Positions 3,125 through 14,414 of a DNA stretch of 20,308 nucleotides are shown here, piece after piece. The stretch covers positions 1 through 20,308 of IMG/VR virus record IMGVR_UViG_3300017760_000147; one strand, given 5' to 3'. The notes beneath the pieces are model-generated. The model had not been told where the DNA came from, did not search any database, and saw nothing but the letters and a program-made list of their open reading frames with translations. The translations under genes were made by a program, and so were the position numbers. Within the stretch, counting starts at the first letter, position 1. Each line of letters opens with the position of its first letter. This DNA comes from a virus.

Positions 3125-6100
3125 ATGTTTATGGGACTAGGGATGCCAATCCCTGATTTATCGAATAAGCCAGGCCCGGGTAGACCAGGTTGGGGACCAG
3201 CAGGTTCATACGATTTTCAGTTTGAGGTAACAGGTGATGTAGTTATAGAAGCTTTTCCAAACACTACTGGACAATCGTTTACTATTAAGTGGCAAAATGG
3301 AAGTACTACTCAAACGAGTGGAAGTTCTACTATAAATAGTCCTGTTGGTGCTGGTGCTGGTATTATTTCTATAAATAACGAGCTTGACAATACTTACGCT
3401 GATGAGTTTAAAATTGTCAGTGGTCAAAATAATATAACTAAAGTAATATCTTGGGGTAGAAATCCTTGGTCAATAGTAGAAGAAGCTTTTAAAGACTGTA
3501 TTAACTTAACAGATATAGGTACTACATCTTTTATAGCTGGAACAGCTCAAAGATCTAATCAACCATCTGGTTGTATAATGGGTAAAATGTTTTTAGGTTG
3601 TACTTCATTATTAGAAGTAGATATTAGAACGTGGGATTTATCAACTAGTGGAGCTAGCTGGAGACTTGGAGGTCCTTTTGCTAATTTAGCTAACTTACAA
3701 AAATTAGATGCTACTGGATTAAAAATAAAATTCTTTGATTCTAACAATGTTTCTACATTTAATTTCGCAAACATAGGAACTAACGTAACTGATGGGTGTG
3801 AGTTTAAAATGGCAGGTCTTGATCTATCAACTTCTTCAACTGGTTATTTAGATAACTTATTTAATGGAACAAAATTTAAAGCTGGATCAAATTTATCTAA
3901 TTGGAAATTCCCAGTTAACTTCAATCCCGCAGGTTGGAGAGGTTACGGTTGGTTTCAGAATTGCATATTAAACGACGGTATTTTAGATGTATCAGGATGG
4001 ACTACTTGGCCTGGTAATATGCTTCCTTATTTTGGTAGCTTTAACTCCGCTTTAACAAGTCAAGGTACTGCTAAAGTAGATTTATCTAATTTTGGGTTAA
4101 CTAATGTCTTTGATTTTTCAAATGTTTTTAATAATTGTAAACTAAAAGAGGTAATAGGTTTTAGTACATGGGGAGCTTGTGCTGGTAATGCTAATATAGG
4201 CTCAATGTTTAGTAGTGCTTCACTAATGAGAATTGATCCTAGTGATAATTTTTCTGATACTTTTATAGCTAGTCTTACACCAACAAGTGTAACTAAGGCT
4301 TTCCAGCTTTTTGGGTATGATCTGTTAGACTCACAGCGTGGGGTCCATATGAACTTTAATAATATAGATTTTTCCAATATTGGAAGCTTTTATTTCACTT
4401 GGAGATTTGCTAAACTATTAGATGCTCCTGATTTTAGCACTGCTACTTTTGATAATAATAACCCAGTTAGTTTTGAAAGCGCTTTTACAAACTTTAACAC
4501 TTTAAATGCGGACTCTTCAATTGTTTTAAATGGTGGTAAGATAACTAGTTTTCTTTATACGTTCCAAGGTACTAGAGTAAATACTGTAAATATAGACAAC
4601 GGCGTAGATTTATCTGCTTTAACAACTGTAGCTGCAATGTTTTATTATTCTCCAGTTGGTACAGCAACTCTACCTTCTAATGCTGATTATAGTTCTTTGA
4701 CTAACTTTGGTAGTTGGAATACTAATTATGGTGGGTTTAGCGTTTGCCAAGGTGACATACTAATGAGGAGGCTAAAAGCCACTAACCTTAACACTAACAT
4801 AACTGCTAATCTTCCAAAAATAACTGAATCGCCTGCTTTAGTTAATTCAGACAGAGATGTCTTAGAAAACGATAGAGGTTGGAACATAATTACTCCTACT
4901 CCAGACGCTCCTTTACCATTTGCTTATCCATCATATTTTGTTGATAGAGACGTTTACAGCAACATAACGCCATCTAGCTTTCCTGCTGGAAGCACTTTTA
5001 GTTCTACTAATGCTGGTATGACTATAAATGAAAACACAGGTGTTGTATCTTGGGCTAGTAATTTTAGCGGTGAAAGTATTATAAGATGTACTTATCCAGA
5101 TGGATGTTACAATGAGGTTAATATGCTTGTGGGTGTTCCTATGGTATATAAAGTAACCGTTGGAGACTCTAATTACGGTAACGGAGATCTAGGTTTTCAA
5201 GTTCAATCCATAGGAGACTACAGAACACAAAGCGTTGCTATTGATCTTGGAGATGGTACTACAGTTTCAGGGGTGGATGGTATTAATCACACATATGCTA
5301 CAGCTGGTGATTATGATATATCTATATTTGGTAACTTTGATCCTTGGTTTTATAATCTCTCAAATGACGCTAATAAATTAAGAGAAGTGTCTAAGTGGGG
5401 TGAATCCAACCACAGCTTAGGAGGACAGTATACTGGAAATTTTTCTCAAAGAGGAGCTTTTAATGGTTGTAACAATATGGATATAACAGCAACAGATGCT
5501 TGTGTATTCTTACCAGGTGTATCTTTAAAACAATCATTTGCTTATTGCTATAATTTAACTAATTCTAATGGTTCTATGAACACTTGGGATGTTTCAGAAG
5601 TAACTGACTTCAATAGTTTGTTTTACGATGTTTTTAACAAACAATTTCCAATAGATCAATGGGTTTTTGGAACATTAGCCGATACGGGTGGTATAAACCT
5701 TGGTGCTATGTTTCAAAGAACTAGTTTTAATACAGATATAAGTACTAGAGTTAGATCAGACGGGCAATTAGCATGGGATACAGAAGGTGTAACTAATATG
5801 TCTTCTATGTTTATAACGTGTACAAGTTTCAAACAAGATATAAGTAATTGGAATACGGATAATGTAACATCTTTTTCCGGTTTTCAAAATCCAAATGGAC
5901 AAACTAGCGTTGGAATGGACGTTGACATGTCTACTAAGCAGGTGACTGTAGGTACTAAAACATATATTGCGTGGGATGTGAAAAGCTGTACTAGTTTTTC
6001 AGGGATGTTTGGTAGTAACCAACGTCATGGTGGTGCTAAACCTAGAAACTTAATAAATTGGAACACGTCTAGCGCAACAAGCATGAGTAATATGTTTCAA

Positions 6101-9100
6101 AAAGCTAGGGTTGACCCTAATGGACCAGCATGGAATTTAACACCTAGACAAGTCACTGTAGGAACAGGCGCAACGGCTAGAACTTACAACGCATGGGATG
6201 TTAGTAATGTAGAAAACTTTAAATCATTATTCGAAGAAGGTGTTAATCTAAATGGACCTAATTCTCAAGTTGGTATAACTCGGGCTTGGATTGATGGAAT
6301 AGAAGATTGGGATGTAAGCGGTTCTACAGGTGATTTAAGACAAGTGTTTTTTGAAAGTAATATAGGAACTATAGATTTATCTTCATGGAACGCTTCAATA
6401 GAGAAAGGTTTCTATTTCGCTGGGCTTGGTTCTAGTCTTATAAGTAGCTTTGCTGGATTAGATATAACAAATTTAGGCACAGGGTCTGAGAGTAACTGGG
6501 GTTATTGGAGTCAACAAAACTCATACACGAGCATAAATGCTAGTGGAACAACTACTAACTACGATGATACACTAACCGCTTGGGGTGCTCAATCAGCTAA
6601 TATTGTTAACTCAGGAGTTCCTTTAGATTTTGGTACTAGTAAATATTCACCTGGAAACCCCTTAGCTGTTCAAAGAGGTAATGTTAGTAATCCATCAGGT
6701 ATACCTTCAGGGCAAATGTTTGTTTATGATGCAAATGTAGTTCTTAAAGAATTAACTAGTGTTGGTGATATAGTGCAGCTAATGAATGGTGGTAGCACTT
6801 ATGGGGAATTTGCTAAAATAACAGGTTACTTATCCACTGATGATAGAGTTGCTTTTGTAGATGTATTAGGTGGTGCTAATTTTCCAGTTAATTGGCCAGG
6901 AGTAACTTGGCAATATCAAATCTATGATTCAGACGCTGCTAAAGGAAGATATGCTTTACTAGAAGCCGGTTGGACAATAACAGATGGTGGTGTTGATATA
7001 CCATTTGAATCTGCTGAAATAGAAATAGAATTAGAACCAGGCCAAGAAACTTTTACTATAGGAAGTTGGGGGTATATGAATGCTAAAATAGATTGGGGTG
7101 ATGGAAATGGATTTATTAATAATCCAGCTACAAACCAGCCATATACTAGTTATATAAATTCTTTTACTTATCCAACGACAGGGCAAACTGAGATATATAG
7201 AGTAAAAATAAGAGAAAACGACACTGAAACCTTTAATGGGTGGAGATTTGGTCAATATGGTAATAAAGACAGAGTTAGAAAAATAATAGCTTGGGGAAGT
7301 CAAATAGCTACAACATATTCCAAAGCTTTTCAAGGTACTAATCTAAACAAAACAGGCTTCACTAATACGCTTCCTGTTGACGCTAACGGAAAAGTTACTA
7401 AACCTACTTGGGTTACTAGTATTACTAATTTTTCCATAGCTTTTGCTCAGTGTAATATGCCAGCTAATGCAGACTGGTCTAACTGGGCTAGTGGTGTAGC
7501 TGCTACTAATTTGAGTTCAATGTTTAGTGGTAATGCTAACTTTACTTGTACTGGACTCTCTAATTGGGACTTAAGTAAAGTAACTAACATTAGTGGTTTT
7601 GTTTCTGGTACAGCTTTCAATTCAGATATATCTGGATGGGATCTTCAAAGTTGCACAAGCGCTTCTTCTTTGTTTAGTAGTACACCTTTCAATCATCCAA
7701 GTATATCTAATTTAAACTTATACAATATAACTACTATAACTACTATGTTTTCTGGTTGTACTGCATTTAACCAAGACATTGATACTAAAGTTGTAGGAAC
7801 TGGAGCTGACGCTTATTTAGCTTGGGATACGGCTAATGTAAATGATATGCACGGATGCTTTAATGGCGCTACAAGTTTTAACTATTCAATAGGCAAATGG
7901 AAGATTGATCTAACTAGTCTTAGAGGACTTGCTAGTTTCTTCGCTTATGTAGGTAACAATGTTACGGGTGGATATACACATGATTTATTAACAAAAGATG
8001 TTACTATTGGCACTGGCACTCCAGTTGCTAAAACTTATGTAGCATGGGATGTAGGCCAAGTTAATGGTTTTGGTTCTTCTACTAATAACTACCCTACAGC
8101 AATGGGTGCATTCTTTGGTGGTAATTTTAATGGAGATATATCAAACTGGGACATGAGTGGCTTAGGTCAACTTGGCAATCCACAGTATGGCTATGCTGGA
8201 GAATGGTCTAAAATGTTTTACAACAACGATTTATTTAATCAAGATATAAGTCGTAAAACAATTACAAACGTAAGTGGTAAAGGAACGTATACCGCTTGGG
8301 GTATGAGTGACTGGATAGGTGGTATATATTCATTTTACAATGCTTTAGCTTTTGATCAAAATATTGGTAATTGGGCATTAAACACAAGTGACACTTCTAG
8401 CAGAAGTATGAGTAGATTCTTTAGAGGTTCTGGTATGTCAACAGCTAATTATACAGATACTTTTGTTGGTTGGGCTAACACTGTTAAAGCCAACGGTGGT
8501 TTTCCAAAAAATAAAGCTTTTGCTGACCAAACAGGTATGACCTTTGACTCAAATAGGTCTGGTGGTGCTAATTTTGCTAACGCTTGGGAAGCTAGATCTT
8601 ACTTGACTGACACTGTTGCTAATGGCGGTGCTGGTTGGTCAATATCTAGTGACGCTATACTACCTCTACTAGTTCCTAGTACAAGTTCTTTATCATTTAA
8701 TGGATCTACAGAATATATTGATGTACAAGCTAGTCCAAGAGCATTAGTTGGTAATAGTAACGCTTACACAATATCTGCTTATGTGTTTATAGAAGAAGCT
8801 GATATAGCTGAAGAAAACTATTTTATAATAGGAGCAATGAGTGGTACTGAAAGATGGTATTTTAGAGTTAACGATGGTTATGTTGGTTTTGGTTATGGTA
8901 CTATTATATCAAGCACAACCTTAACACCTATAACAGCTGGACAATGGAACCATGTTGCTGTAACCTACAATGGGACAAACACGCATAAAATATATGTAGA
9001 TGGTGGAAATCCTAAGTACACTAGCACTTCTAGTACTGGTCAAACTATAACAACTAACGATGCTTATATAGGTGCATTAAACAATGGTGCAGATTCACTA

Positions 9101-9256
9101 CACTTTAAAGGTAAAATTGATGAAGTAATGGTTTGGAACACAGAACTTGCTCAAGCTAATATACAAACTCTTGCTAATGCTGTAGGATCAGGTAATGTAC
9201 CAAATCCAGAACAATTATCAACAGGACTCCAACTATGGAACCGAATGGGAGATTAA
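3125..9256 (+). CDS. Giant phage adhesin/tail fibre: PKD-like + DUF285 repeats x3, LamG cap
   Basis: A 2043-residue predicted surface or tail-fibre protein. The N-terminus (GLGMPIPDLSNKPGPGRPGW) is a Gly/Pro-rich segment resembling the start of other marine phage fibres. Three modules follow, each a PKD-like beta domain and then a long DUF285/BspA-like repeat region (WDxSxVTxMSxMFxxxTxFNxDIS type). Module 1 covers residues about 30-585 with a degenerate PKD. Module 2 has its PKD at about 675-736 (DLGDGT at 707, then HTYATAGDYDISIFG) and repeats to about 1160. Module 3 has its PKD at about 1298-1370 (DWGDGNG at 1323) and repeats to about 1840. An Ig-like segment lies at about 606-669. The C-terminus (about 1853-2036) is a LamG/concanavalin-type domain. 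No catalytic motif is seen. It probably binds a host receptor. Starts at 3131 and 3143 are also possible. Confidence 0.85.
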   Translation: MFMGLGMPIPDLSNKPGPGRPGWGPAGSYDFQFEVTGDVVIEAFPNTTGQSFTIKWQNGSTTQTSGSSTINSPVGAGAGIISINNELDNTYADEFKIVSGQNNITKVISWGRNPWSIVEEAFKDCINLTDIGTTSFIAGTAQRSNQPSGCIMGKMFLGCTSLLEVDIRTWDLSTSGASWRLGGPFANLANLQKLDATGLKIKFFDSNNVSTFNFANIGTNVTDGCEFKMAGLDLSTSSTGYLDNLFNGTKFKAGSNLSNWKFPVNFNPAGWRGYGWFQNCILNDGILDVSGWTTWPGNMLPYFGSFNSALTSQGTAKVDLSNFGLTNVFDFSNVFNNCKLKEVIGFSTWGACAGNANIGSMFSSASLMRIDPSDNFSDTFIASLTPTSVTKAFQLFGYDLLDSQRGVHMNFNNIDFSNIGSFYFTWRFAKLLDAPDFSTATFDNNNPVSFESAFTNFNTLNADSSIVLNGGKITSFLYTFQGTRVNTVNIDNGVDLSALTTVAAMFYYSPVGTATLPSNADYSSLTNFGSWNTNYGGFSVCQGDILMRRLKATNLNTNITANLPKITESPALVNSDRDVLENDRGWNIITPTPDAPLPFAYPSYFVDRDVYSNITPSSFPAGSTFSSTNAGMTINENTGVVSWASNFSGESIIRCTYPDGCYNEVNMLVGVPMVYKVTVGDSNYGNGDLGFQVQSIGDYRTQSVAIDLGDGTTVSGVDGINHTYATAGDYDISIFGNFDPWFYNLSNDANKLREVSKWGESNHSLGGQYTGNFSQRGAFNGCNNMDITATDACVFLPGVSLKQSFAYCYNLTNSNGSMNTWDVSEVTDFNSLFYDVFNKQFPIDQWVFGTLADTGGINLGAMFQRTSFNTDISTRVRSDGQLAWDTEGVTNMSSMFITCTSFKQDISNWNTDNVTSFSGFQNPNGQTSVGMDVDMSTKQVTVGTKTYIAWDVKSCTSFSGMFGSNQRHGGAKPRNLINWNTSSATSMSNMFQKARVDPNGPAWNLTPRQVTVGTGATARTYNAWDVSNVENFKSLFEEGVNLNGPNSQVGITRAWIDGIEDWDVSGSTGDLRQVFFESNIGTIDLSSWNASIEKGFYFAGLGSSLISSFAGLDITNLGTGSESNWGYWSQQNSYTSINASGTTTNYDDTLTAWGAQSANIVNSGVPLDFGTSKYSPGNPLAVQRGNVSNPSGIPSGQMFVYDANVVLKELTSVGDIVQLMNGGSTYGEFAKITGYLSTDDRVAFVDVLGGANFPVNWPGVTWQYQIYDSDAAKGRYALLEAGWTITDGGVDIPFESAEIEIELEPGQETFTIGSWGYMNAKIDWGDGNGFINNPATNQPYTSYINSFTYPTTGQTEIYRVKIRENDTETFNGWRFGQYGNKDRVRKIIAWGSQIATTYSKAFQGTNLNKTGFTNTLPVDANGKVTKPTWVTSITNFSIAFAQCNMPANADWSNWASGVAATNLSSMFSGNANFTCTGLSNWDLSKVTNISGFVSGTAFNSDISGWDLQSCTSASSLFSSTPFNHPSISNLNLYNITTITTMFSGCTAFNQDIDTKVVGTGADAYLAWDTANVNDMHGCFNGATSFNYSIGKWKIDLTSLRGLASFFAYVGNNVTGGYTHDLLTKDVTIGTGTPVAKTYVAWDVGQVNGFGSSTNNYPTAMGAFFGGNFNGDISNWDMSGLGQLGNPQYGYAGEWSKMFYNNDLFNQDISRKTITNVSGKGTYTAWGMSDWIGGIYSFYNALAFDQNIGNWALNTSDTSSRSMSRFFRGSGMSTANYTDTFVGWANTVKANGGFPKNKAFADQTGMTFDSNRSGGANFANAWEARSYLTDTVANGGAGWSISSDAILPLLVPSTSSLSFNGSTEYIDVQASPRALVGNSNAYTISAYVFIEEADIAEENYFIIGAMSGTERWYFRVNDGYVGFGYGTIISSTTLTPITAGQWNHVAVTYNGTNTHKIYVDGGNPKYTSTSSTGQTITTNDAYIGALNNGADSLHFKGKIDEVMVWNTELAQANIQTLANAVGSGNVPNPEQLSTGLQLWNRMGD

Positions 9257-9266
9257 AAAATAATAA

Positions 9267-12200
9267 ATGGCAGAATATATAAATCCACAATGGCGTCTAC
9301 CTAACGAAAAGACAGGAAATAATAAAGGTTATAGTATGAACTTTAGTGGTCAACAAATAAATTCAAGTTCAAATTTAGGTATTTCAGGAGCATCACCAAG
9401 AACATTCTCAGCTTGGATAAAAACCACTGATGCTGGTGGCGGTTGGGATGTAATTGTAGCTACTGGTAACACGGGAAATACTGGAAACAATTTTGAGTTA
9501 GATTTTAGATCGGGTAAAATAACTTTCAACGATTGGGGTACAGATACGTTTAGCGGTGCTACTGTTAATGATGGTAATTGGCATAATATATGCTTAACAT
9601 ATAATGGAACTATTTTAAAATTATATATTGATGGAATAGAAGACACTGCGGGAGATTTTCCAGCAACAAAGTCTGTTAGCTCAACAGATACACCAGTTAG
9701 AATTGGTGGAATGAACCATAATTCAAAATATTTTAATGGTCAAATATATGGAGTAGCCATTTTCGACTATGCTCTTCCAGCAATTGGATCAAACTCTGTA
9801 GCAACTCTTTATAATAGTGGCACACCTTTTAACCCAATGGCTTTGTCTAGTCCACCTGTGGCTTATTACCCACTTGGTAATTCAGCTCACATGGGGTCTA
9901 ATTACCTAACGCCAAATGGTGCTCTTCAAGATTATGTTTTTGATTTTGATTCTGATTATATAGATTTCGGAACTAGTTTAGGTGATTCTTTAGGTAGTTC
10001 TTACTCTGGAGATTTAACTGTTTCAATGTGGTTAAAATTTGATTCTATAAGCACTCAGAACGGATTGTTCTATATAGGAGACTTGGCTGGCGGAGGTGGT
10101 AGTTTTTGGATTAACAGTTCTATAAGTAGATTATGGTTACAAGCTAATAACGGAACTGCGGGTTATGCTTGGTGTGATATTTCTTCTTTAAACACGACTG
10201 ATTGGTATAATTTAACTTGTGTATATAAAGGATATGATATTGCTAATTCTAAAATTTACATAAATAATGTTCCTCAAACATTAACAACTTATGGTAATTT
10301 TAACTACACTTATGACTTTACTGGTAAAAAAACTACTATTGGAGATTATTATAATACTCCACCTTTAGCTCCTTTTTATGGCGAAATGTCAAATGTACAA
10401 GTATTCAACACGGCATTAATAGGATCGGAAGTAGAAACTCTTTATAACTACGGCTCACCAATACAAACTTTAGCTAATATACCTCAAAACTCTAATCTAA
10501 AAGCTTGGTACAAACTCGATGCAACTGAGATTTATAATTTACTATCTGTTGATGGCTTTAGCGCTACTGATAACACCGGGGGCGGTGGTGGTGGTGGCGG
10601 TAGTAAATTCGTATCAAATCCTCTTTACGTGGGTAGTGGAGGTTCTGGTGGATCAGGTATAGTTGTATTAAAATACCCTACTAACTTAAATGCAGCTTTT
10701 AGTGCTGGATTAACTAAATCAGACGTAATAAATGGTAGTAATACTATAACCTCTATAAAATCTGGAACTGGTACTGTTGCTTTTGGTAATGCTGGAACTA
10801 TAAGTGATTACTTAATAGTAGCAGGCGGCGGCGGTGGAGGTGGCGCAGTGAATCTTTCTAATGGAGAAGCAGGTGGCGGTGGTGGCGGCGGTGGAGGTTT
10901 GTTAAATGGAACGTCGCTAAGTGTTAGTGCTCAATCATACAATATTACTATAGGAGAAGGTGGGTCCGGTGGTTTAAAAACTACGGGTGGTACAATAGGT
11001 AGTCAAGGAGAAAATGGCCAAGATTCTATTTTTTCAACATTTACAGCTATAGGTGGAGGCGGTGGCGGTGCTGGTCAAGTTGGTAGCAACGCTTTATCTG
11101 CTGGAAAAAACGGTGGATCTGGTGGCGGCCCAGGTGGCTCTAGTGGTGCTCTTACAAGCGCTGGTGGGACAGGCTCTCAAGGCTCTGACGGTAGTGCTGC
11201 TTCTAATAAAAGAGCCGGTGGTGGAGGCGGAGGCTACTCTAATACTGGAACAGCTGCCACGAGTAATGAAGTTCCTGGAAATGGAGGAAACGGGTATTTA
11301 TATTCTCTAACAAGTACTTATTATGCAGGCGGCGGTGGAGCTGGTGTTTGGCACAATACTGGAACAGCGCCTAGCGGTGGATTATCTGGAGATGGAAGTA
11401 CAGGAATAGGTGGTGCTCCTAAACAACAAGGCGATATAACTCCAGAAGGTCCTAATTTTACAGACTGGTGGAAAATATTAGACGACAGCAATAATTCTAA
11501 CGATGGCGCAAGCTCAGGAATGTCTCAATCAAACCTTATTCAAAGTGACTTATTAACAACTTCAAGCTATAGCCCGTATGCCATGAGTTTTGATGGTAAT
11601 GATAGAATAAACTTAGGACTTGAAAGCGACCTCAACATAGGTAGCGCTTCAAAGTGTTCTACCAGTTTGTGGTTTAAAAAAGACGATGAAAATAGCGGTT
11701 GCTTGTGGGGTTATAATTATGGAGATGCGAGTGGTAGTGGGTACTATTTTTGGCTTAACTCTGGTAATTTAAGAATAGCGGTTGGTAAAAATGGTTTAAC
11801 AGGTAGTTTTGGTTATTACCAAATATCATCTAGTGATTTACCAGTAGGCGTATGGCAAAATATTGTTGTTGTTTTTGATGGAACACTTGCTTCTGGTGAT
11901 GATAGAATAAAAGTTTATCAAAACGGAAACTTATCTGATGGCACATATTCTGATTCCAGTAATTTTCCTACAACACTTCCAGATGGTAATGGAGCTAGTA
12001 ATAGAAACGTATACTTAGGACAGTTACAATTAGGTAATGGTAATTTTTCTTATGATTTTAATGGTGAAATTTCAAATGTGTCAATATGGAATACTAATTT
12101 AACAGTGACGCAGGCTAGAGAGATTTATAACAAAGGACTACCTAGCAATTTACACAACTTTTCTGGCACGGCTCCTGTAGCGTGGTGGCAGTTAGGATCT

Positions 12201-12431
12201 AATAGTTCTTTTGCTGGCAACTGGACAGTTTTAGACGAAATAGGTTCAAATGACGGAACTAGTAATGGTATGCTAGAAAGCGCTATAGTAGATGGCGTAG
12301 GAACAAGCGGTAATGGAGTTTCAACAAACATGTCATTTCCAATAAATATATCAGGATCTTCTCCAAATGGTGAAGGAAATTCTTTAAGTGTAAACATGAC
12401 GCTAGCTAATATAGCTGGTGGTGTAAATTAA
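9267..12431 (+). CDS. Tail fibre/adhesin with three LamG domains and a glycine-rich insert
   Basis: A 1054-residue protein. LamG/concanavalin-like domains are visible at residues about 22-188 (RTFSAWIKTT, NWHNICLTYNGTILKLYIDG, GQIYGVAIFDYAL), 222-400 (LTVSMWLKF, GEMSNVQVFNTAL) and 771-965 (STSLWFKKDD, WQNIVVVFDG, GEISNVSIWNTNL). Between the second and third lies a poly-glycine region (about 437-728) containing DYLIVAGGGGGGG and many G-rich runs, which may form a polyglycine-II sandwich like that in S16 gp38-type adhesins. The C-terminal 90 residues (VAWWQLGSNSSF, VLDEIGSNDGTSNGM) form a conserved-looking tail found with phage LamG fibres. The likely function is reversible binding to surface glycans. 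The gene follows an A-rich leader of 10 bases. Confidence 0.85.
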   Translation: MAEYINPQWRLPNEKTGNNKGYSMNFSGQQINSSSNLGISGASPRTFSAWIKTTDAGGGWDVIVATGNTGNTGNNFELDFRSGKITFNDWGTDTFSGATVNDGNWHNICLTYNGTILKLYIDGIEDTAGDFPATKSVSSTDTPVRIGGMNHNSKYFNGQIYGVAIFDYALPAIGSNSVATLYNSGTPFNPMALSSPPVAYYPLGNSAHMGSNYLTPNGALQDYVFDFDSDYIDFGTSLGDSLGSSYSGDLTVSMWLKFDSISTQNGLFYIGDLAGGGGSFWINSSISRLWLQANNGTAGYAWCDISSLNTTDWYNLTCVYKGYDIANSKIYINNVPQTLTTYGNFNYTYDFTGKKTTIGDYYNTPPLAPFYGEMSNVQVFNTALIGSEVETLYNYGSPIQTLANIPQNSNLKAWYKLDATEIYNLLSVDGFSATDNTGGGGGGGGSKFVSNPLYVGSGGSGGSGIVVLKYPTNLNAAFSAGLTKSDVINGSNTITSIKSGTGTVAFGNAGTISDYLIVAGGGGGGGAVNLSNGEAGGGGGGGGGLLNGTSLSVSAQSYNITIGEGGSGGLKTTGGTIGSQGENGQDSIFSTFTAIGGGGGGAGQVGSNALSAGKNGGSGGGPGGSSGALTSAGGTGSQGSDGSAASNKRAGGGGGGYSNTGTAATSNEVPGNGGNGYLYSLTSTYYAGGGGAGVWHNTGTAPSGGLSGDGSTGIGGAPKQQGDITPEGPNFTDWWKILDDSNNSNDGASSGMSQSNLIQSDLLTTSSYSPYAMSFDGNDRINLGLESDLNIGSASKCSTSLWFKKDDENSGCLWGYNYGDASGSGYYFWLNSGNLRIAVGKNGLTGSFGYYQISSSDLPVGVWQNIVVVFDGTLASGDDRIKVYQNGNLSDGTYSDSSNFPTTLPDGNGASNRNVYLGQLQLGNGNFSYDFNGEISNVSIWNTNLTVTQAREIYNKGLPSNLHNFSGTAPVAWWQLGSNSSFAGNWTVLDEIGSNDGTSNGMLESAIVDGVGTSGNGVSTNMSFPINISGSSPNGEGNSLSVNMTLANIAGGVN
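10575..11450 (+). other. Glycine-rich module inside the LamG fibre gene
   Basis: This coding stretch consists of GGN-rich codons producing Gly runs of up to nine residues, broken by Ser, Ala, Asn and Thr. It begins with a short Gly run and a GSGGSGIVVLKYP ending (10575-10678), continues with a beta linker (FSAGLTKSDVIN to GTGTVAFG, about 10697-10790), then a new start DYLIVAGGGGGGG (from about 10805) and the main Gly-rich body to about 11440. Local GC is clearly higher than in the flanks because of GGC/GGT/GGA codons. Such regions also open a spurious second frame (11053-11310), which is not a gene. Confidence 0.75.
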
Positions 12432-12438
12432 AAATAAA

Positions 12439-12687
12439 ATGAATAATACAATATATACAATTGTAAACTTATCTGATACTAACGCTATTATATTTAGCCA
12501 AGTAGCAGAAGACTCAACTCAATCAATGAGAAGAAATATAGCAAACACTCAAGGTGTTATATCTTATTTAGTTGAACCAAGTTTTATAACTAATGGAGCA
12601 TTAACTCCAGTTAGTACATTAAATCAAACAGAGTTTTTAGCTTTAATGCAAACTCCTGAGTGGAAACCAGCAGATCCAACAGACTAA
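12439..12687 (+). CDS. Small hypothetical protein downstream of the fibre genes
   Basis: An 82-residue protein after an A-rich leader (TAAAAATAAA) directly behind the LamG fibre. It opens with a beta segment (TIYTIVNLSDTNAIIFSQVA), then ESTQSMRRN-like helical and YLVEPSFI segments, and ends NQTEFLALMQTPEWKPADPT. The ILDFSQV-type motif and the acidic, Trp-containing C-terminus (TPEWKPAD) recall short proteins that follow fibre genes in Bacteroidota phages, but I cannot name a family. A fibre-associated or assembly role is inferred from position only. Its stop overlaps the next ATG (TAATG). Confidence 0.7.
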   Translation: MNNTIYTIVNLSDTNAIIFSQVAEDSTQSMRRNIANTQGVISYLVEPSFITNGALTPVSTLNQTEFLALMQTPEWKPADPTD

Positions 12688-12902
12688 TGATAAGAATATT
12701 AGCAACAGATAAAGACACTTGGTTTATAACATATAATGATGATAAATCTATAATACATTATGGTGAAGCACTTGAAGGAACATCTATAGATAGTGGTCAA
12801 CCAGATAATGATCCATTATACTATGACAAAGCTGATTGGTTAATTAGGTTAGCTGAGCTTGGCGTAGACCCAGAAGAAATTGCTAAATATAATGATGTAT
12901 GA
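12687..12902 (+). CDS. Small acidic paralogue A of a tandem triplet (possible fibre accessory)
   Basis: ATG 12687 (TAATG overlap) gives 71 residues. This start is preferred to an upstream GTG at 12660, which would run well inside the previous gene. The pattern WFITYNDDKSIIHYGEALEG, then DKADWLIRLAELGVDPEEI parallels the next two proteins: an aromatic W-I/F-I-T-Y/W beta strand, a central G-rich turn, then D..W...L.E.G[IV].P near the end. There are no TM segments or catalytic motifs. As a small acidic protein directly behind tail fibres it might act as a fibre assembly chaperone or minor component, which is inference. It ends ATGA with paralogue B. Confidence 0.7.
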   Translation: MIRILATDKDTWFITYNDDKSIIHYGEALEGTSIDSGQPDNDPLYYDKADWLIRLAELGVDPEEIAKYNDV

Positions 12903-13619: not shown

Positions 13620-13821
13620 TATAGGTTCTGATTACAAGAATGATGCAATGCATTATTCAACTGGTCAGGAAGTGTACGGTGGACATACTATTAGTGATAT
13701 TCTTTTTGAAGATCAAGATCAATCATATAATATTTTTATAACTAAAAATAATGAAGTCTTGCCTTGGAAAAAGTTTAACGCTAATATGGCAATATCTGTA
13801 GAGTACGATTTAAAGTACTAA
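13594..13821 (+). CDS. Small conserved-type hypothetical protein (75 residues)
   Basis: Starts at ATG 13594 inside the preceding gene (26-base overlap, leader GAAGAAG) and ends in a TAATG junction with the GroES-like gene. The motif KISIGSDYKNDAMHYSTGQE, then SYNIFITKNNEVLPWKKFN and ISVEYDL suggests a small mixed alpha/beta fold with a Tyr/His-rich N-terminal motif (YKNDAMHY). I believe this pattern recurs in Bacteroidota phages near terminase genes, but no function is known to me. Confidence 0.7.
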   Translation: MSKVIRKISIGSDYKNDAMHYSTGQEVYGGHTISDILFEDQDQSYNIFITKNNEVLPWKKFNANMAISVEYDLKY

Positions 13822-14414
13822 TGAAAAGTTTATACAGTTTCATTGTTAAACCACTAGATGAAAGGTATGACAATATTAGAAAGGTTGAAGAAAAAGAGCT
13901 TATTATTAATACAAGTATTGAAAACCATAGGTTTGTTAGTAAAAAAGCTGCTGTTGTATCTACTCCAGCGGCTTACACCTCAAAGATAAAAGTAGGTGAT
14001 GAGCTTTACGTACATCACAACATATTTAGAAGATGGTATGATCAAAAAGATAGAGAACGTAATAGCTCTACATTTTTTAAAGATGACTTATATTTTGTTT
14101 CACCAGAACAAATATACATGTATAATCTTAAACCACATTTAGATTATTGTTTTGTAAAACCACTTAAAAACCAAAACATTTTAGAGAACAGAAAAGAACA
14201 ACCTAACGTTGGTGTAGTGAAATATAGTAATAGTTCATTAGAAACGCTAGGAATCACTCCTGGAACACTTATTACGTTTACCCCTGACTCTGAGTTTGAG
14301 TTTATTATAGATGGTGAACGACTTTATTGTATGAAATCAAATGATATAGCTTTAACGCATGAATACCAAGGAAACGAAAAAGAAAATAATCCAAGCTGGG
14401 CAAAAGGCGATTGA
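13821..14414 (+). CDS. GroES-like co-chaperonin, apparently two tandem domains
   Basis: A 197-residue protein. The first domain (about 5-98) has FIVKPLDERYDN, a region with HRFVSKKAAVVSTP, then KVGDELYVHHNIFRRW at about 57-72, and ends YFVSPEQIYMYN, which follows the Cpn10 order (V-x-P-x-x-RY, x-V-x-x-TP, VGDxVxVxHN, F-V-x-x-xxI). The second (about 105-184) repeats the order: CFVKPL, GVVKYSN, GITPGTLITFTP, then MKSNDIALTH. Such phage co-chaperonins (T4 Gp31, RB49 CocO) replace or assist host GroES so that GroEL folds the capsid protein. The location just before terminase and portal fits that role. The family assignment is by motif pattern and is moderately confident. Its 3' end overlaps the small terminase by 56 bases. 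Confidence 0.65.
   Translation: MKSLYSFIVKPLDERYDNIRKVEEKELIINTSIENHRFVSKKAAVVSTPAAYTSKIKVGDELYVHHNIFRRWYDQKDRERNSSTFFKDDLYFVSPEQIYMYNLKPHLDYCFVKPLKNQNILENRKEQPNVGVVKYSNSSLETLGITPGTLITFTPDSEFEFIIDGERLYCMKSNDIALTHEYQGNEKENNPSWAKGD

Follow-up and report, generated by a model that had tools for sequence, protein, structure and literature searches.

A glycine-rich domain, probably circularly permuted, in the linker between two LamG domains of a phage fibre protein

The window, i.e., the whole stretch of DNA analysed, is a virus record of 20,308 bases, with a phage terminase (phrog_6681) and a phage portal (phrog_6547). The terminase matched 87 phage records, the best with 63% identity (Caudoviricetes) and the other 86 below 60%; Flavobacterium (68) and Cellulophaga (15) were the main hosts of these phages. 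The fibre is encoded on the plus strand by an open frame of 1054 amino acids (positions 9267–12431), in which Pfam recognised a repeated LamG chain of three Laminin_G_3 stretches (PF13385, E 1.1e-48) and a Gly_rich_2 domain (PF21722) scoring 58.1 bits, well above the curated family cut-off of 24.3. Directly upstream lies an open frame of 2043 residues (3125–9256) with five DUF285 stretches, a C-terminal LamG and a weak PKD-like stretch below the cut-off, and a GroES-like co-chaperonin (phrog_13932, E 4.5e-22) is located at 13821–14414, between the fibre and the terminase. The features of the fibre gene are the following.

9267–12431, plus strand: fibre gene, with the order LamG1, linker, LamG2, linker A, glycine-rich insert, linker B, LamG3, conserved C-terminus.
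10373–10538, plus strand: linker A, the left flank, ending with SNLKAWYKLDATEIYN (from DNA comparison with relatives).
10539–11453, plus strand: the insert of 305 codons (915 bases), probably one circularly permuted module similar to Gly_rich_2 (from profile and flank alignment).
10572–10679, plus strand: END segment, NTGGGGGGGG to GGSGIVVLKYP (from the alignment and from profile positions 200–266, which match the first part of the insert together with the hairpin).
10680–10787, plus strand: hairpin segment, TNLNAAFSAGLT to GTGTVAFG (from profile, alignment and comparison of leaders with tails).
10806–11453, plus strand: START and body, DYLIVAGGGG to ITPEGP (from profile positions 1–196; no END follows downstream of the body).
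11454–11617, plus strand: linker B, the right flank, beginning with NFTDWWKILDDSNNSNDGASSGMSQSNLIQSDL and leading into LamG3 (from DNA and peptide matches to relatives).

The peptide SNLKAWYKLDATEIYN begins at fibre residue 409 (base 10491) and is followed by LLSVDGFSATDN and a glycine run, after which come END, the stretch from FSAGLT to GTGTVAFG, START, the body up to ITPEGP and finally NFTDWWKILDDSNNSNDGASSGM, all in one open frame, just as a previous sequence-only reading had described them. The insert is in frame at both edges. Its END segment, C-terminal in ordinary modules, is N-terminal in the window, and the hairpin segment behind it corresponds to the tail of most phage modules sampled and to the leader of the others.

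Using linker A as the query, 29 related loci were found in viral contigs, some of them identical or nearly identical (L045/L072, L050/L071, L046/L074 and L057/L060/L061/L068–L070). The linker continues without a glycine-rich module in 29 out of 29, which is the uninterrupted form that the earlier reading had proposed to look for. DNA similarity to the window ends at 10538 in 26 of these loci, at 10539 in two and at 10548 in one; Pfam analysis of the next 200 residues in 10 loci placed Laminin_G_3 above the cut-off in nine and gave no match in L048. On the other side, DNA similarity of the right flank to L057/L060/L061 begins at 11511, and at the peptide level the joined flanks align with the uninterrupted linkers of L002, L003, L064 and others; the right edge of the insert was set by such a gapless alignment to within a codon or two. 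Several relatives carry linker A, then a LamG, a type-B linker and one further LamG. Gly_rich_2 was present only in the window among the 40 records searched with Pfam (0 of the 39 others, many of which are fragments; the more distant LamG hits L012–L025 were left out). Since the linker is unbroken in the relatives and Gly_rich_2, in the records searched, is confined to the window, positions 10539–11453 are best read from these comparisons as an insertion or as a domain exchanged for a LamG in the same slot, with identical borders either way. The suggestions that a glycine-rich stretch had entered a linker between LamG domains in a modular fibre, and that it owed its order to some recombination, were thus borne out. 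An ancestral layout was rejected, as none of the relatives examined shows it, and the finding named beforehand as fatal to the insertion, the same layout throughout the relatives, did not turn up. The break of the linker is real, with one correction to its position: LLSVDGFSATDN most likely belongs to the insert, because similarity to the relatives ends at 10538.

The profile comparisons showed how the insert is organised. Its best Gly_rich_2 stretch covers profile positions 4–201 of 226 with residues 500–717 in one piece, while the profile end lies upstream, so that PF21722 is not covered in order by one stretch; the START, body and END motifs are shared with the other members seen, but their order is broken. 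By its sequence, the insert appears as a permuted relative of Gly_rich_2 and not as a standard member. Against a profile derived from 20 ordinary viral-contig modules, the whole protein matched in two pieces of reversed order (positions 193–266, then 1–196; with the insert scored from NTGGG onward, 200–266, then 1–196). When the pieces were rejoined in the ordinary order, a single domain spanning positions 1–266 scored 136.7 bits, compared with 50.7 and 78.4 for the native fragments. Among all 305 rotations of the insert, the eight best begin 0 to 7 residues before DYLIV, their best domain reaching 139.0–139.6 bits as against 78.3 in native order. The gain in the whole-sequence score was modest: 14 bits on rejoining (136.9 versus 122.8) and 12 bits in the rotation test, where the native order gave 127.5. 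The top score of 200 shuffled inserts was -2.6 bits. In tandem arrays of such modules the start-to-start spacing ranges from 254 to 312 residues (n = 10), and the 305 residues of the insert exceed nine of these ten values. Because the END piece and the body are complementary and give a full module when rejoined, the sequence argues that the insert is one circularly permuted domain rather than a module plus a fragment. A module with the stub of a second one, as first proposed, was rejected on the same complementarity of profile positions, and the insert, whose length lies within the range of the tandem spacings, shows no sign of a second module. The end-spacer-start order, though present as described, is not unusual in itself: END-tail-START is the ordinary joint between neighbouring modules in tandem arrays (L026, L028, L029).

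Direct sequence searches located few relatives of the insert. With the low-complexity filter on, tblastn against phages gave no match for the insert or its END-START part; the alignment, searched under the same filter, found five loci in viral and two in genome contigs. The body alone had no relative in viral contigs and the insert none among PDB sequences.

An assembly artefact, in which reads from another phage's glycine-rich gene were merged with the LamG gene or a longer array of identical units collapsed to one copy, has to be considered for a metagenome contig, where glycine repeats assemble poorly, and the left junction recurred in no second contig of a collection that may omit near records. 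Nonetheless, both joins lie outside the glycine runs and in frame, the left one at the position where the relatives also diverge from one another. An accidental join would also have to deliver two complementary halves with the codon use of the flanks (summed chi-square p 0.71; glycine codons p 0.15), a comparison of low power which likewise led us to reject a foreign composition of the insert. A collapsed array would alter copy number alone and leave the permuted borders unchanged, and altogether we regard an artefact as improbable. Repeat analysis within 9101–12700 listed short linker repeats and glycine-codon repeats; no direct or inverted repeats were listed at the edges of the insert. The hexamer TAATTT is present at both edges (10535–10540 and 11453–11458), which, in DNA rich in A and T, hints weakly at a join through short homology.

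The reverse nesting, in which LamG domains entered a turn of a glycine-rich module and END and body stem from two larger interrupted modules, has a precedent in L030, where two open frames (from about 1427 and 7983) hold LamG-like stretches inside glycine-rich modules at approximately profile position 66. The L030 insertion, however, is in another turn; the window fibre lacks an upstream START and a downstream END, and the relatives have an unbroken LamG linker, which makes such nesting very improbable here. The partial modules of L030 are interrupted by LamG.

Sampling of ordinary modules was extended with an END-anchored search of viral contigs, which yielded at least 119 stretches and, from 163 open frames in 117 loci, at least 161 full modules in ordinary order; among the END-anchored matches listed, none of the 12 open frames with partial modules had the order of the window. 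The earlier loci contained 80 full modules (a redundant set), and among their partial ones only those of the window place END before START. Identical open frames were removed, as were modules without a recognisable START or END and those that began beyond profile position 30 or stopped short of 180. This left 180 modules, 147 of them in single-module frames and 143 once frames truncated at the right edge of the locus were excluded. The residues following END fell into distinct classes: 5–10 in 14 modules (leader type), 33–43 in 128 (tail type) and 290 in one, left unscored, which by eye is a tail type followed by additional protein. The short-end modules, 13 and not 14 because one is cut at the left edge, all had a leader hairpin (such as GGYKYHTFTSSGTFTV) upstream of START, while the long-end modules had a tail in 128 of 128 cases and a leader in none (leader profile, E 0.01). 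Hence, in loci L026–L257 a homologous hairpin stands either before START (13/13) or after END (128/128) and never at both ends; these counts are not independent events because near-identical frames remain (e.g., L028, L205), and they lean to the tail type, as 120 of the 142 modules came from the END-anchored scan, whose KYP pattern favours it. At E 0.01 the leader profile matched 14 of the 128 tails (best 1.8e-14) and the tail profile 4 of the 13 leaders, while neither matched any of the 128 stretches before START; only this contrast with other stretches counts, since a short C-terminus was the criterion for selecting leaders, and these in turn supplied the leader profile. Because the profiles cross-match in this way and the stretches before START do not, leader and tail seem to be one element standing at opposite ends. 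In the arrays, a single hairpin copy serves as the tail of one module and stands before the START of the next. Bacterial proteins inspected by eye include both the leader type (L113, L117, L124, L133, L138) and the tail type (L089). In 296 Bacteroidota genomes, 27 matches stop early in PF21722, of which three were inspected; L133 is an ordinary leader-type protein, L135 has glycine-rich runs with no START or END recognised by eye, and L129 yielded no open frame under the filter used.

Since the hairpin is found at either end and never at both, the glycine-rich domain seems, on sequence grounds, to be naturally circularly permuted at the hairpin as a general property of the family, with the window representing a third cut; this cut point has a single example, no other sampled module being cut there. 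Such a leader-or-tail rule would account for the many phage modules whose PF21722 match begins only at position 10–23, and would suggest treating the hairpin in annotation as one shared element.

Structure models are in line with a single domain. The AlphaFold model of the insert in native order had a pLDDT of 78.6 and a pTM of 0.80, compared with 90.6 and 0.90 for an ordinary module (whose input alignment comprised 19 ordinary modules). The END strand (residues 42–48) and the START strand (87–95) lie in blocks with pLDDT 94–95, while residues 1–8 and 278–314, among them roughly the final 29 residues of the module piece by the seam, are below 50. The insert is thus predicted to form one compact domain, whose well-modelled sheet takes in the START strand as well as the N-terminal END strand; the model leans on tandem-array slices and is not an independent proof, because its input alignment held slices in the same register. 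Among solved structures, VIA-align placed first the myocyanophage Pam3 fibre gp24 (7ypx) and the tail tip of mycobacteriophage Bxb1 (9d93), at Z values (9–10) only somewhat above the 7–8 which, by the tool's own note, is reached by models without a clear match. Residues 67–274 of the window model align with residues 76–256 of the Pam3 fibre (Z 10.0, rmsd 3.9, 167 aligned) and 69–274 with 38–247 of Bxb1 (Z 9.2, 172 residues); the ordinary module aligns by residues 1–247 with 102–280 of Pam3 (Z 10.0, rmsd 3.9, 164 aligned) and by 1–242 with 65–267 of Bxb1 (Z 10.4). The predicted model therefore has the fold of these TNF-like plus glycine-rich fibres, with a body alike in all three, and the later part of the hairpin segment aligns from Pam3 residue 76 onward. 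In contrast, the closing strand, C-terminal in Pam3 and Bxb1 according to the matched ranges of the ordinary module, is N-terminal in the window: judged by the same ranges, a leader strand would precede START as in the solved fibres and the closing strand would be absent from the C-terminal end. The following VIA-align rows had Z of about 5, three of them being LTK/ALK glycine-rich domains. Foldseek against the PDB gave no match at E ≤ 0.001 for either model, whereas the window model had 48 matches at this threshold in BFVD, most named glycine-rich domain-containing protein. Salmonella phage S16 gp38 was listed for neither model by Foldseek or VIA-align, which excludes nothing.

Taken together, we favour, with a probability of roughly 0.7, a LamG fibre that gained one complete, circularly permuted glycine-rich domain in its LamG2–LamG3 linker, likely from a tandem array. 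The source would be an array of glycine-rich modules, in which END-tail-START joints are ordinary, and about one period would have been taken out of it or left from it. The module appears to have been opened before NTGGGG, in a variable turn that separates the last two long glycine runs. The up-and-down order of the runs would put this turn on the base side, so that both new ends would face the LamG chain and leave the distal loops free. Such loops may take part in recognition of the host surface: receptor binding was proposed for the distal ends of the Pam3 glycine-rich loops, and in the polyglycine sandwich of the fibre adhesin S16 gp38 the glycine-rich motifs alternate with variable loops that are related to host range (PMC6851490). 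The insert is therefore likely, by analogy, to act as an added receptor-binding module, a second surface-binding unit on a chain of lectin domains. The settings differ: the Pam3 domain forms the distal tip and that of the window lies inside the LamG chain, while the glycine-rich part of S16 gp38 grows from beta-helix turns (PMC6851490). If the reading is right, a phage can add a whole surface-binding domain in the middle of a fibre by rotation, keeping the chain on either side, and such a domain would be expected to fold whichever of several start points it is given.

How a single period came into the slot admits more than one origin. A tandem pair or array already sitting there may have been trimmed from both sides, the one-period remainder reflecting selection for a foldable unit, an origin that would not conflict with the permuted fold. 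Viral contigs do contain arrays joined END-tail-START in this way, and trimming requires no circle; on the other hand, trimming alone would not predict so little profile overlap between the two pieces (193–266 and 1–196), and none of the 29 relatives has an array in the slot, so that we keep it as a tentative possibility. For the favoured permuted domain, a bolder view, which we consider rather unlikely as a whole, is that the glycine-rich domain is a topological ring which phages and bacteria open before the hairpin, after the hairpin or, in the window, at the base-side turn, and that a DNA circle of one period, released by a tandem array and integrated via TAATTT homology, gave rise to the window form. 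If true, ring and circle together would let a fibre take up an already folded receptor-binding domain in mid-chain, its two ends pointing to one side.

Mosaicism of phage receptor-binding proteins, in which unrelated domains are swapped between fibre genes, has been described (Nat Commun 2023, PMC10684548); the stem "permut" occurs 0 times in the main text of that paper as accessed. By title or abstract start, the open-library search returned no paper on permuted glycine-rich fibre domains, which is not a proof of absence; the sole paper combining "circularly permuted", "glycine-rich" and "tail fiber" (PMC3482391) has, from the part available, polymorphic toxin systems as its topic.

The left flank itself is unusually conserved. 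At third codon positions within 10428–10538 (111 bases), mean agreement with the relatives was 0.93 compared with 0.73 for the terminase, and all 23 rows, repeated loci included, had the higher value in the linker; after removal of seven repeated loci, the values were 0.91 for linker A (28 loci) and 0.73 for the terminase (18 loci). This stretch is a possible recombination handle, and its conservation suits an exchange of fibre domains between conserved linkers, though it may have another reason. The LamG2 core, by comparison, had a DNA match in only one of 46 loci, L073, where its counterpart (1111–1520, 85% DNA identity over 410 bases) is encoded in a different, upstream open frame; on this placement, adjacent fibre genes seem to exchange LamG domains.
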